From assembly GCF_000531125.1 (NCBI RefSeq), contig NZ_CBTK010000047.1:1-64000 (forward strand): a DNA stretch of 64,000 bases. Reading direction: 5' to 3'. This DNA comes from Candidatus Contendobacter odensis Run_B_J11. GTDB lineage: Bacteria; Pseudomonadota; Gammaproteobacteria; Competibacterales; Competibacteraceae. Numbering within the stretch: the stretch's first letter is position 1; each line of letters opens with the position of its first letter. Shown here in pieces: positions 2,121 to 55,906 of the stretch. Below the pieces are notes generated by a model that had not been told where the DNA came from, ran no database searches, and was given only the letters and a program-made list of their open reading frames with translations. A program made the translations under genes and the position numbers.

Positions 2121-2153
2121 CGGTTACCTTTAATACAGTGGGTGGTAGCATTG

Positions 2154-3656
2154 ATGTCCTATCCTGACAAGGTTAAACCTGATGCCCAGGCAAATATTGA
2201 TATCAGTGATCTCAAGATCAGTGATGCGACTCCCGTAATTCCCGGCTACAAGGTTGAAAAGCTGATTAATGGCGGCGCTATGGGCCAGGTGTACTTAGCG
2301 ACTCAGGAAGCATTGGAACGGCCAGTCGCAATCAAAGTCATTACCCCTGCTCTGAGCATTGACGCCACCTTCCGCCTGCGCTTTCTCAAGGAAGGGAAGA
2401 TCGTGGCTCAACTGCGCCATCCGCATATTGTGACGATTCACGATATCGGCGAATGCCTGAATCAGTACTACATGATCATGGAATATATAGAAGGTGGCAC
2501 ATTAAAGGATCGGATTAAAAAAGGTTTGTCCCCGGAACAGGCTGTCAATATCATGCGCCAACTGGCCAGCGCCTTGGGCTATGCGCATCGTCAGGGTTTT
2601 ATTCATCGGGATGTCAAACCCGCTAACATTTTATTTCGCGACGATCATAACGCAGTACTCTCCGATTTCGGCATTGCAAAATCCTGTGAAGATAGCGTCC
2701 AGCTTACCGCGACCGGCTTGGCGATTGGCACAGTCCTTTATATGAGTCCGGAACAGGCTCAAGGTAGAACACTGGATGGCCGAAGTGACCTGTATTCGCT
2801 TGGATTGTTGTTTTACGAAATGCTGGTCGGGTTTCGACCCGATCGCACCTTGGAGGGGTTTATCGAACGCTTGCCAGCGGGATTTGGTCGATACCAGGGC
2901 ATTCTGGACCGACTGCTGGCCCGCAACCCGAATGAGCGCTTTAATACCGCCGAACAGCTCATTAACGCCCTCGATAAAATCAGCGATAAGGAAGATGACA
3001 AAACTATTGTCCTGCCTTCAACAGTGGACAGTAGTCAACAAGCTAAACGCCTGCGTCTATTCAACCCATACTCTATCGGGATCGCGCTTCTTCTGGTCAC
3101 CGCTTTTCTGGTGGGATCCGGTTATTTTTTTTGGGATCGCCCATTAAATTCTGCTCTTTCCGTTCAGGTGTCCTATTCCTACCGACCCACTGATCAGCTT
3201 AATTTTCGATCACTGACCAACGATGGGGTCCTACACTCCGGGGATCGTTACCAAATTCGCTTTATACCAGAACAAGACGGCTATGCGTATATTTTTCAAA
3301 TTGATAGCAGTGGGAAAATTTACCGCCTGTTCCCGGTGGAAGGCAGCGACACCTCACAAACCGCTAATGTTAATCCGGTGCGGGCGGGCATGACCTACTT
3401 TGTGCCCGCCGAAGACGAGGCTTTTCAACTGGATGATCAGGTAGGCCAGGAGCAAATCCACTTTTTGGCTTTCAGGAATCGCAATGTCGCCCTTGAAGGC
3501 CAGTATACCGCGCTGGTTGAAGCGCGCCGGGTGCAGAACCATTCACGAATTGCGGATCTGCAAGGTCAGTTGACCCATAGCTTGCAGAAGGTTCAATTAG
3601 GCGCCATGCCGGTGATTAATTTCAAACACAATGAGAGGGGAAGCCATGATCTGTAA
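2154..3656 (+). CDS. Transmembrane Ser/Thr protein kinase (PknB-like) with extracytoplasmic DUF4384 domain
   Basis: Eukaryotic-type kinase of about 500 residues. The cytoplasmic N-terminus carries a glycine-rich loop (NGGAMGQVY), the ATP-binding lysine (VAIKVI), catalytic loop HRDVKPAN (about residue 154), DFG metal site (SDFGIAK) and MSPEQ activation segment, so it should be active. One membrane helix follows at about residues 303-327. Outside the membrane is a DUF4384 domain (about 335-450: YRPTDQ, SGDRYQI, YAYIFQIDSSG, YRLFP, VRAGMTY). Start: an in-frame GTG lies at 2142; ATG at 2154 is chosen as the likelier one. The gene overlaps the next by 11 nt, and the next gene encodes a stand-alone copy of the same DUF4384 domain. 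Substrates unknown. Confidence 0.88.
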   Translation: MSYPDKVKPDAQANIDISDLKISDATPVIPGYKVEKLINGGAMGQVYLATQEALERPVAIKVITPALSIDATFRLRFLKEGKIVAQLRHPHIVTIHDIGECLNQYYMIMEYIEGGTLKDRIKKGLSPEQAVNIMRQLASALGYAHRQGFIHRDVKPANILFRDDHNAVLSDFGIAKSCEDSVQLTATGLAIGTVLYMSPEQAQGRTLDGRSDLYSLGLLFYEMLVGFRPDRTLEGFIERLPAGFGRYQGILDRLLARNPNERFNTAEQLINALDKISDKEDDKTIVLPSTVDSSQQAKRLRLFNPYSIGIALLLVTAFLVGSGYFFWDRPLNSALSVQVSYSYRPTDQLNFRSLTNDGVLHSGDRYQIRFIPEQDGYAYIFQIDSSGKIYRLFPVEGSDTSQTANVNPVRAGMTYFVPAEDEAFQLDDQVGQEQIHFLAFRNRNVALEGQYTALVEARRVQNHSRIADLQGQLTHSLQKVQLGAMPVINFKHNERGSHDL

Positions 3657-4434
3657 AACGTATTGGTGGAATTATTCATTGCTCATCTTGCTCGGTGGCG
3701 TATTGAGCGGAACCGCAGGAGGTGCTGACAATCCTTCATCCGACACCGATCTGAAAACCCGTGGTCCGGCGGGGACCGTCAAAATTGCTCCCGAGCCGGG
3801 TGGAGCAACCCCAAAACCGGCGTCACTCACCCCACAAACGGCGCTAAAATCGCTGAACTTCAAGGTTAATTATGTCTATCGCCCTGGTGGTCAGGGAGTT
3901 CTCAAGCCATTGGTTGATGGCAGTGTCCTGAATTCCGGTGACCACTACAAAATTCAATTCACCCCTGAAGAAAATAGTTATGTGTACATTTTTCAGGTGG
4001 ATAGCAGCAAGGCGATTTACCGGCTTTTCCCGATGACCAGTTTTGGAGGGATCAAGGTTGACAATCTTAATCCGGTTCGGGCCGGTGTCACTTATCATCT
4101 GCCGGCCAAGGATAAATCGTTTCAGCTTGATAATATCGTCGGCTTGGAAAGCATTCTTTTTCTGGCCTTCCGACAACCCAATCAGGCGTTAGAACAGCAA
4201 TACGAAGAGTTGTTAAAAGCCCGGCTGGCTAAGGATAATTCCAAAGCCGATAATTTGCAGACCACGATCAAGAGTAGTTTCAAAACCCGTGGTTTGGCGG
4301 CTATCGTGGACGATCCTGAGAAAAAAGCGACCACTGTACAATGGACATCAGCGGAATCTTTTACTATACCGGTGCAGCGTTTGGATAACCTGTGTGCGGA
4401 TTGTGTCAGTATGATTAGCTTCGATCATCGGTGA
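3646..4434 (+). CDS. Secreted DUF4384 protein
   Basis: A 262-residue protein with an N-terminal hydrophobic signal segment (LLILLGGVLSG), a short proline/glycine linker and one DUF4384 domain. The domain shares SGDHYKIQF, YVYIFQVDSS, IYRLFP and NPVRAGVTY with the C-terminus of the kinase upstream. Start: ATG 3646 is preferred over 3631 because a GAGGGG ribosome site lies 6 nt upstream and the signal peptide then begins directly. It overlaps the kinase stop, implying translational coupling. It may be a periplasmic partner or ligand-sharing companion of the kinase sensor domain (inference). Only two cysteines occur, both near the C-terminus (CADC). Confidence 0.75.
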   Translation: MICKTYWWNYSLLILLGGVLSGTAGGADNPSSDTDLKTRGPAGTVKIAPEPGGATPKPASLTPQTALKSLNFKVNYVYRPGGQGVLKPLVDGSVLNSGDHYKIQFTPEENSYVYIFQVDSSKAIYRLFPMTSFGGIKVDNLNPVRAGVTYHLPAKDKSFQLDNIVGLESILFLAFRQPNQALEQQYEELLKARLAKDNSKADNLQTTIKSSFKTRGLAAIVDDPEKKATTVQWTSAESFTIPVQRLDNLCADCVSMISFDHR

Positions 4435-53069: not shown

Positions 53070-53143
53070 GAAGTGAAACCGCTATGGCGATAGTCGTTAG
53101 CCCCTTACAATGATTCATGGCCCGTGGTGGCAAGGAGGGAAAC

Positions 53144-55906
53144 ATGTATACCAGCCATTTCGGTTTTGACAGCAAGCCGTTCAAATCCAAAGATCCGAAG
53201 GATTTTTACCGTAATGCCAATTTCGATGTCGCCTGTGCCGACATTCTGGACGGTATTCGGGAACGGCGCGGGTTCATCCTGCTGACCGGCGAGGCCGGGA
53301 TCGGAAAAACCTTCGTGCTGCGCCGCTGCATGGCAGAAGCCGACGATATCCGCTTCGTGCTGCTCAACAACGCCAATCTCAACTTTCCCGACCTGCTCAA
53401 TTATCTGTGCGGCGCGCTGGAATTGCCGGCCACCCACCTGAATACCGAGCAGCAGGGCCAACGGCTGCTGGACACTTTGGTGGCGTATGCACGCCGTAAC
53501 CAGACCATCGCCTTGCTCATTGACGATGCCCATCATCTGCGCGCCGATGCGTTGTGTCGCCTGTGGGAATTTGTAGAGGTGCCGTCGCTGCCCAGCCAGC
53601 GCTTGCAAGTCGTACTGGCAGGATTGCCGGAAATCGAAGGCAAACTGCGCCAGTACGATTTACAACTGATCCAGGACAGCATTGAGGTTCGCTGTCATCT
53701 GGAGCGCCTGAGTACCCTGGAAACGGGGCTGTTTATCTCGCACCAGTTCACGGTTGCCGGACTTGAAGTCGGCGATTTGCTCTCGCCGGCGGTGATTGAT
53801 CGGATTGCCACCCATAGCCAGGGCGCACCCCGCGCAATCGCCATGCTGTGCGATGCGATCCTGCTCTTTGCCAGCCTGGAATCAAATCAGCGGGTCACGC
53901 CGGAGCTGGTGGACGACGTTGCTCGCGACTGTTTTCTCGGTGCCCGCTCCGAACGGCCAATAGTCGAAACTCAAGCTCCCCGTCACCCGGTTTCCACTGC
54001 TGCCACACCGATGACCGATGACGATCTTGACGATCTTGAACTGGGTTTGCCCGATCTCGATTTCACCTTCGATTTCGATCCGGATCAAACGGCGGTCAGT
54101 GAGTTATCGGTGGGTGAATCGCCGGCGGTTGCGATCCCGGATTTTGAGCTGGAGCCGGCCACTGTGATGACCCCGGAACCGCCGGTCGAGCCGGCATTCG
54201 CCCCACTGGCGGAGTTCCCTGAGCCCATCCCGGAGCCAATCCCGGAATCGCTCCCGGAAGCCCTGTTGCCGGCGTCGCCGCCCCTGCGTGCATTTGCCCA
54301 GTTGCTGGAGGAAACCGTTGCCAAACAGGATCGCCATGATGTCCGGGATCGGGCGGCGCTCCGCTTTTTCCACTACGGCTATCTGCGGTTGTTGCAAGGC
54401 ACGAGTCGGGCGCGGCTGACCGAGTGCGAATGGCGACTGGCGCGGCTGGCGCAAATCCAGCAGCCGGTGGTGGTCATGCTGGCGGTGGCTATCCGCGCCG
54501 CACCGAGATCGAGTGGGGTGTTATGCGCCCTGCTGATCAATCCGACCTGGTGGCAGTATCGCGAGATTCGCTTGCAGGTGCGCAGTCCCGATCTCAGCTT
54601 CGCCAACGCTGGACAGGCTATCTCGCTGCGGTTGCTGGGCGGTCGCGACGCCCATCCGGTGTATCTGGAATTTCACGGCGCGAGTGCGGGTTCCACCCAG
54701 GCCGGGCTGCGGCTGGAGATCGAACTCCGCGATCATCGCGGGGAATGGCAGGCTTATGTCAGTCGGCGGGAGATTCGGCTGGATCTGCCGCTGAGGCGCG
54801 AAGGCGGGCGCAAGGTGGATAAGGTGCTGGCGACCGACGCCCGCCCCGATTGTTTCTGGCCTGAACCGGAAGGCGCTGAAAACGATGCCGCTGCCGGAAT
54901 CTGGTTGTTGAACGAGTCTGCCGCCTTAACCACTGTGGGCGGTTTGGCCGATACCCTGCCACTCGAGCTGGAAGTCGATGCCGAGCGCACCCAACGTCTG
55001 CGTGCTACGACGGTGCAAACCCTCGTTCGTGGCACCCCGCTCACTCGAGCGTTGCTGTTGTCCGCCGACCCCGCCCACGCGCCGGCGCGGATCGAACTGG
55101 TTTCGCGTCCTTTCATGGTGCTTGGGCGCTACAACGCCGTGACGGGAATGGGTTTCGGCGACTTCGCTCTGGGTTTCGTCCCCAAGTACAACCGGATTTC
55201 CCGGCTACATGGCGTGATTTGCGCGCTGGGTGATCAGTTGGCGCTGATGCCGGCGAGCAATCAGGGTTACACCTACATGGGTCGCAATGGGGTGCGATTG
55301 GAGCGCGGGTGCTGGGAGTTCCTTGAGTCCGGCGATGCTCTGGAGATTTGCGGCCTGTACCGCCTGCGCCTGACTCTGAGCTGGGATCAGCGGGGTGAGC
55401 GCGACCCGCCGGGCTGGGATCCCGCCGAGTCACGCGAAAAGTTTGGGCATTATCTGCTCGACCTGGTTGACGAGTTGCAGCAGCGTGATTCGCGCACCAA
55501 TACCGACGAGACCCAAGCCCCGCTCAGGAGTCGCTACCTCAACCTGCTCCGGATGCAGGAACGGGTCGCCGTCATGAACGGGGTCGGCAGTCCGGGTGCC
55601 CTGCTCTATGCCCGATTCGAGCGCGAGGATGAAGCCGGAGGACGGCAGGTGGTGCATTATTACCTGCCCAAGTGGTTGTCTTTAGGCAGTGATCCGCAAG
55701 CCGGTTTGCGGATCACTGCCGCAGGCGTAGCGCCGCAACAGGCCGAGCTGCTGCTCCGCGATGGCATGTACTGGATTCAGAATCTGGCCGGACCGGGTTC
55801 GGTGCGGGTCGGTTGTCACGGGTTGGCTACTAACGAGGTAATCGCATTGGAAGCAGGCGATGTGCTGGGGATTGGGTCAGCGCGATTTACCTTCGAGGCG
55901 TATTGA
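53144..55906 (+). CDS. ExeA/GspA-type AAA ATPase fused to two FHA-like domains
   Basis: A 920-residue protein. Residues 1-265 form an ExeA-like AAA domain (YTSHFGFDSKPF start, Walker A GEAGIGKT, Walker B ALLIDDAHH, QGAPRAIAMLCDAIL). A proline/glutamate-rich acidic linker (about 280-390) follows, then a beta-rich middle. An FHA-like domain at about 655-745 has GRY...KYNRISRLHGVI, matching the FHA pattern GR-...-SRxH, and a second, more degenerate one at about 840-918 starts SLGSDPQAG. ExeA proteins help outer-membrane secretin assembly; FHA domains bind phosphothreonine. No peptidoglycan-binding domain is evident. ATG 53144 follows AAGGAGGG. The stop abuts the converging histidine-kinase stop. 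Confidence 0.8.
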   Translation: MYTSHFGFDSKPFKSKDPKDFYRNANFDVACADILDGIRERRGFILLTGEAGIGKTFVLRRCMAEADDIRFVLLNNANLNFPDLLNYLCGALELPATHLNTEQQGQRLLDTLVAYARRNQTIALLIDDAHHLRADALCRLWEFVEVPSLPSQRLQVVLAGLPEIEGKLRQYDLQLIQDSIEVRCHLERLSTLETGLFISHQFTVAGLEVGDLLSPAVIDRIATHSQGAPRAIAMLCDAILLFASLESNQRVTPELVDDVARDCFLGARSERPIVETQAPRHPVSTAATPMTDDDLDDLELGLPDLDFTFDFDPDQTAVSELSVGESPAVAIPDFELEPATVMTPEPPVEPAFAPLAEFPEPIPEPIPESLPEALLPASPPLRAFAQLLEETVAKQDRHDVRDRAALRFFHYGYLRLLQGTSRARLTECEWRLARLAQIQQPVVVMLAVAIRAAPRSSGVLCALLINPTWWQYREIRLQVRSPDLSFANAGQAISLRLLGGRDAHPVYLEFHGASAGSTQAGLRLEIELRDHRGEWQAYVSRREIRLDLPLRREGGRKVDKVLATDARPDCFWPEPEGAENDAAAGIWLLNESAALTTVGGLADTLPLELEVDAERTQRLRATTVQTLVRGTPLTRALLLSADPAHAPARIELVSRPFMVLGRYNAVTGMGFGDFALGFVPKYNRISRLHGVICALGDQLALMPASNQGYTYMGRNGVRLERGCWEFLESGDALEICGLYRLRLTLSWDQRGERDPPGWDPAESREKFGHYLLDLVDELQQRDSRTNTDETQAPLRSRYLNLLRMQERVAVMNGVGSPGALLYARFEREDEAGGRQVVHYYLPKWLSLGSDPQAGLRITAAGVAPQQAELLLRDGMYWIQNLAGPGSVRVGCHGLATNEVIALEAGDVLGIGSARFTFEAY

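Follow-up and report, generated by a model that had tools for sequence, protein, structure and literature searches.

The question raised by this locus is what an ExeA-type AAA ATPase does with FHA-like domains on its C-terminal side. The gene lies in the window, the whole 64-kb stretch of DNA from a Competibacteraceae genome analysed here, and encodes a protein of 920 residues (Table 1). The start methionine is common to the homologues in the alignment, and stop codons interrupt the opposite strand in the frame facing the gene. From the N-terminus to the C-terminus, the protein consists of an ExeA/AAA_22 ATPase domain, a linker, a β-sandwich, a first FHA domain (FHA1), a helical hairpin and a second FHA domain (FHA2). 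We hold this domain content with high confidence; the confidence of the structure models is modest across the protein (pLDDT 63–68). An earlier note on this DNA had described an ExeA-type AAA domain joined to one canonical and one degenerate FHA domain, and profiles and fold searches bear this out. It overlooked the β-sandwich between the linker and FHA1, and also the PrsT gene downstream.

Table 1. Coordinates of the gene, its domains and other window features named in the text
Feature	Position in window	Strand	Basis
Whole gene, 920 aa	53144-55906	+	single intact open frame
Shine-Dalgarno AAGGAGG	53132..53138	+	read directly; 5 nt upstream of ATG at 53144
ExeA/AAA_22-type ATPase, residues 1-270	53144..53953	+	Pfam, TIGR03015, motifs, trees
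Acidic Pro-rich variable linker, residues 265-380	53936..54283	+	composition, homologue alignment
Helical segment and β-sandwich (appendage/Ig-like topology), residues 381-625	54284..55018	+	AlphaFold2 model
FHA1, residues 640-755	55061..55408	+	profiles of homologues, model, fold search, conservation
Helical hairpin between FHA domains, residues 760-812	55421..55579	+	model
FHA2, FHA/YscD-like, residues 815-920	55586..55903	+	profiles; PDB match
PrsT-type TPR protein (TIGR02917), 1333 aa	59630..63631	+	1070.8 bits, cut-off 312.2
Ser/Thr kinase	2142-3656		intact motifs

The N-terminal domain matches Pfam AAA_22 at residues 40–168 (E = 9e-21). The XrtA/PEP-CTERM ATPase profile TIGR03015 covers residues 1–262 with 138.4 bits, under its curated cut-off of 324.5, and a PDB sequence search with the AAA domain as query gives no match. 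The Walker A motif, GEAGIGKT, is essentially intact across 27 homologues. The Walker B motif is ALLIDDAHHL, with DD in 26 of the 27 homologues and DN in the remaining one. The ExeA-like paralogues have DE at this place, as ExeA does, and hydrolysis by the 920-residue protein could therefore be slow or absent. ExeA carries a membrane helix and a periplasmic peptidoglycan-binding domain, and it assembles the secretin through its ATPase domain (PMC4098917). In the 920-residue protein the maximum 19-residue hydropathy is only 1.56, compared with 1.74–2.39 in the membrane-anchored paralogues, giving no strong membrane helix, and Pfam finds no peptidoglycan-binding domain. This contrast with ExeA, drawn in the earlier note, is true. 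It is unremarkable by itself, because TIGR03015 relatives such as L002 likewise lack both parts.

The linker was said to be acidic, and its composition agrees: the 116 residues from 265 to 380 include 25 Asp or Glu, 3 Lys or Arg and 23 Pro. Its sequence and length vary among the homologues except for one short acidic motif at about residues 303–315, which reads LGLPDLDFTFDFD in the window copy and in which D310 is invariant. A self-phosphorylated linker serving as the ligand of FHA1, in the style of DgcB or OdhI, was considered and rejected, since the acidic motif holds mostly Ser and seldom Thr in the homologues. After the linker, the AlphaFold2 model has blocks between residues 381 and 550 mostly at pLDDT 80–90, with the β-sandwich proper at about residues 443–550. 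Structural searches with the sandwich return generic appendage, Ig and C2 matches alone (best Z 7.2) and point to no family.

FHA1 shows the features of a phosphothreonine reader. Pfam detects an FHA domain here in 21 of 30 homologues (best E-value 2.8e-5), although the window copy alone has no Pfam match and a PDB sequence search with FHA1 has none either. The model of residues 628–920 has a pLDDT of 63 and a pTM of 0.67, and the best 50 Foldseek matches to it are all FHA-containing proteins (best E-value 1.7e-3), the alignment covering FHA1. OdhI, DgcB, Rad53 and MDC1 are among them. A finer structural aligner again returns only FHA domains, with modest Z-scores of up to 5.2. Profiles and fold searches thus both identify FHA1 as an FHA domain. 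Its phosphothreonine-binding set is G661 and R662, S686, R687 and H689 (S-R-x-H), and N715 and G716. These positions correspond to R61, S75, R76 and N97 of the DgcB FHA domain. In DgcB the phosphothreonine cleft is lined by R61, S75, R76, T96 and N97, and the FHA domain is believed to govern the enzyme fused to it (PMC6733907). All 30 homologues, a standalone protein of 41% identity among them, carry G661, R662, S686, R687 and N715, while H689 is kept in 29 and G716 in 27. With 28 of the 113 alignment columns invariant, the chance that all five canonical positions fall in invariant columns is 7e-4 if columns are taken as independent. Between G-R and S-R there is an unusual insertion, modelled at low confidence (pLDDT 38–47). 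Judged by these residues, FHA1 apparently is able to read phosphothreonine.

FHA2 is different. Pfam FHA matches it in 29 of 30 homologues (best E-value 7.2e-10); the window copy alone scores 15.4–17.3 bits, below the Pfam gathering score of 20.7. A PDB sequence search with FHA2 finds the FHA domain of EmbR (E = 0.0079). The region is poorly modelled (pLDDT 36–52), so the assignment of FHA2 rests on the profiles. The phosphothreonine-binding residues are gone: G848 and S849 (G-S/N) stand in place of G-R, A863 and P864 in place of S-R, and N-G is absent. The structural His and Ala are largely retained despite this loss. The window copy also fits the YscD-type FHA profile (8.5e-4) better than the general FHA profile (0.025), and there is a weak match to TagH. 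These features of FHA2 suit a scaffold in which both FHA domains make protein–protein contacts without reading phosphate, like the FHA-like domains that YscD-type proteins contribute to secretion apparatuses, and the protein acts as an adaptor for an assembly ATPase. However, a pure scaffold would not need the five canonical FHA1 residues that never vary in 30 proteins, and we consider this explanation somewhat unlikely.

We prefer to read the protein as a cytosolic AAA ATPase that is recruited by phosphothreonine, and give this a probability of roughly 45%. In such a protein the ExeA-type ATPase would work without membrane anchor or cell-wall-binding part; ExeA itself multimerises and helps to build envelope complexes. 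The C-terminal reader module, made of the β-sandwich, FHA1, the helical hairpin and FHA2, would take the place of both missing parts. FHA1 would bind to a client that carries phosphothreonine, or else to a partner chain that has been phosphorylated, while FHA2, with the sandwich as a further contact, would make phospho-independent contacts. Docking would then concentrate or gate the step in which the client is assembled or remodelled at the expense of ATP. From ExeA (PMC4098917) and FHA-regulated proteins such as DgcB we infer the mechanism as a whole, including phosphopeptide binding by FHA1, the ATPase activity and cycle of the 920-residue protein, the client, the writer kinase, the direction of regulation and the biological role.

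The surroundings of the gene offer another candidate role. The usual neighbours are a WS/DGAT acyltransferase upstream and a convergent cluster of a two-component pair, PepSY and cytochrome b561. They differ in several genera, and we rejected them as conserved operon partners, as the synteny looks inherited and changes between genera. Across the family genomes no conserved operon partner and no kinase or phosphatase neighbour is found. The PrsT gene points to the XrtA/PEP-CTERM system of exopolysaccharide sorting, of which the 920-residue protein might be a member together with PrsT. The long PrsT gene is located within about 6 kb in seven of the nine genomes that have both genes, in three of them at a distance of at most 160 bp on the same strand, and the AAA domain has its distant TIGR03015 match. 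Synteny of PrsT among related species may be inherited, though, and the distribution of XrtA disagrees. XrtA scores above its cut-off in 12 of 39 genomes, nine with the gene and three without it, and has no match above that cut-off in 24 of the 33 gene-bearing genomes. The 920-residue protein therefore cannot depend on PEP-CTERM sorting, and a required link through PrsT was discarded on the same count. In the source genome, XrtA and its own TIGR03015 ATPase are on another contig, C278; this real TIGR03015 ATPase is a separate gene (L002, 378.7 bits) and falls in a different clade from the 920-residue protein. Membership in the system is thus improbable. Separately, the PrsT protein of the window far exceeds the 899-position TIGR02917 model in length, and the 3′ part of its gene matches the model again.

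It is very unlikely that the protein assembles a secretin directly, as an ATPase of the ExeA/GspA type whose FHA part stands in for ExeB or peptidoglycan contacts. The ATPase superfamily is shared with ExeA, whose ATPase domain does this work. Yet the 920-residue protein lacks both the membrane helix and the peptidoglycan-binding domain, related genomes do have ordinary ExeA-like paralogues with both parts, which belong to a different clade, and no secretin gene is seen near the 920-residue gene.

The earlier note had named the Ser/Thr kinase of the window as a possible writer, the two genes sharing the 64-kb window, and the kinase motifs are intact. That this kinase is the dedicated writer is scarcely credible and was dropped, because the two genes are about 50 kb apart, 9 of the 39 family genomes have a full-length orthologue of the kinase while 33 carry the 920-residue gene, and the source genome has several other kinase-type matches. 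For the phosphothreonine-recruited ATPase, a writer probably exists all the same, since Ser/Thr kinase-type matches are found in 38 of the 39 family genomes. The C-terminal part of the window kinase (about residues 334–480) shares 48% identity with a portion of the gene that follows it (3631–4434), and this pair (window 2142–4434) stays together in relatives.

The C-terminal half is present in 33 of 39 Competibacteraceae genomes, in single copy apart from split matches. On every contig that extends far enough to tell, it is joined to the ATPase, with the exception of one genome (G001), in which the sandwich, FHA1 and FHA2 form a standalone gene of 575 residues without ATPase and with 41% identity (L022:8944-10671). 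No further relatives of the whole C-terminal half are found in samples of 369 genomes of the class and 398 genomes of the phylum; a few extra matches there cover the FHA2 part alone. Two of them, L066 and L069, are ATPases of the ExeA type that end in a single canonical FHA domain, and a search with L069 gives matches across both domains in 18 of the 369 gammaproteobacterial genomes. The combination of an ExeA-type AAA domain and FHA is thus found elsewhere, and the rarity claimed earlier for a phosphothreonine reader on such an ATPase was overstated. These single-FHA fusions have no conserved neighbour and no obvious linked kinase.

In the AAA-domain tree the single-FHA fusions fall together (97/94) close to the XrtA ATPases. 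The nearest neighbours of the Competibacteraceae protein are instead paralogues from its own family that are anchored in the membrane and have Sel1-like repeats (support 99/94, and 97/92 when fewer sequences are used). Common AAA ancestry of the two FHA-bearing families is not supported by these separate clades, from which it follows, if the branch supports are trusted, that fusion of FHA to an ExeA-type ATPase arose at least twice. Two different ExeA-FHA fusions are seen in each of the genomes G322 (L129, L142) and G371 (L132, L145).

Comparison with known systems shows how the parts are distributed. The single-FHA fusions of other Gammaproteobacteria (L098-L110, L116, L120, L121, L129 and others) are proteins of 390–470 residues. 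Like the 920-residue protein, they have an ExeA-type AAA domain followed by a C-terminal FHA domain, no membrane helix and no conserved operon partner. They differ in having one FHA domain instead of two, no β-sandwich, a shorter linker and an AAA domain from the clade beside the XrtA ATPases. The closest AAA domains are those of the membrane-anchored Sel1-like paralogues (L081, L082, L084, L087; L078), the sister clade, which partly share the DDAHHL of Walker B; they carry a membrane helix and a Sel1-like tail (repeats assigned by eye) and no FHA domain. The XrtA/PEP-CTERM ATPase (G000:C278, L002) is of the same superfamily and also without membrane helix, and it has no FHA domain. With ExeA/GspA of type II secretion the protein shares AAA_22. 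DgcB of Bdellovibrio and OdhI/GarA share the FHA fold and the phosphothreonine-binding set of FHA1; they are not ATPases, and in them the FHA domain either is joined to GGDEF or occurs by itself.

The joining of AAA and FHA is therefore recurrent, and what is particular to the Competibacteraceae lineage is its own origin, the two FHA domains, the extra sandwich and the standalone relative. The protein is an unusual variant and not a new kind of machine, because similar fusions arose separately elsewhere and versions with a single FHA domain turn up here and there in the class. A search of the open-access literature found no report of an ExeA-FHA or a Competibacter FHA protein. ExeA-type assembly ATPases, tethered to membrane and cell wall in ExeA, occur more than once as soluble proteins with phosphothreonine-reader domains, suggesting that AAA machines of the envelope or of assembly may be regulated in Gammaproteobacteria by signalling through Ser/Thr kinases. 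To our knowledge, clear kinase-reader-effector chains are few in these bacteria. The invariant phosphothreonine pocket of FHA1 makes the idea of a phospho-reader directly testable with one purified domain. A wider reading is unlikely and offered as speculation: the phosphothreonine-gated AAA protein would be a family-wide phospho-signalling hub of these glycogen-accumulating sludge bacteria, and its sandwich and tandem-FHA module would once have been a separate protein, joined later to an ExeA-type ATPase independently of the parallel gammaproteobacterial invention.

Two minor observations concern the related ATPases. The Competibacteraceae ExeA-like proteins L081, L082, L084 and L087, with a membrane helix and a Sel1-like C-terminus, are apparently another family-level ExeA variant. 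At L069:21-1580 and L147:7531-9186, in two relatives, single-FHA ExeA genes are followed in a conserved run by a gene whose product, judged by eye, appears to combine vWA and FHA domains with a membrane helix.
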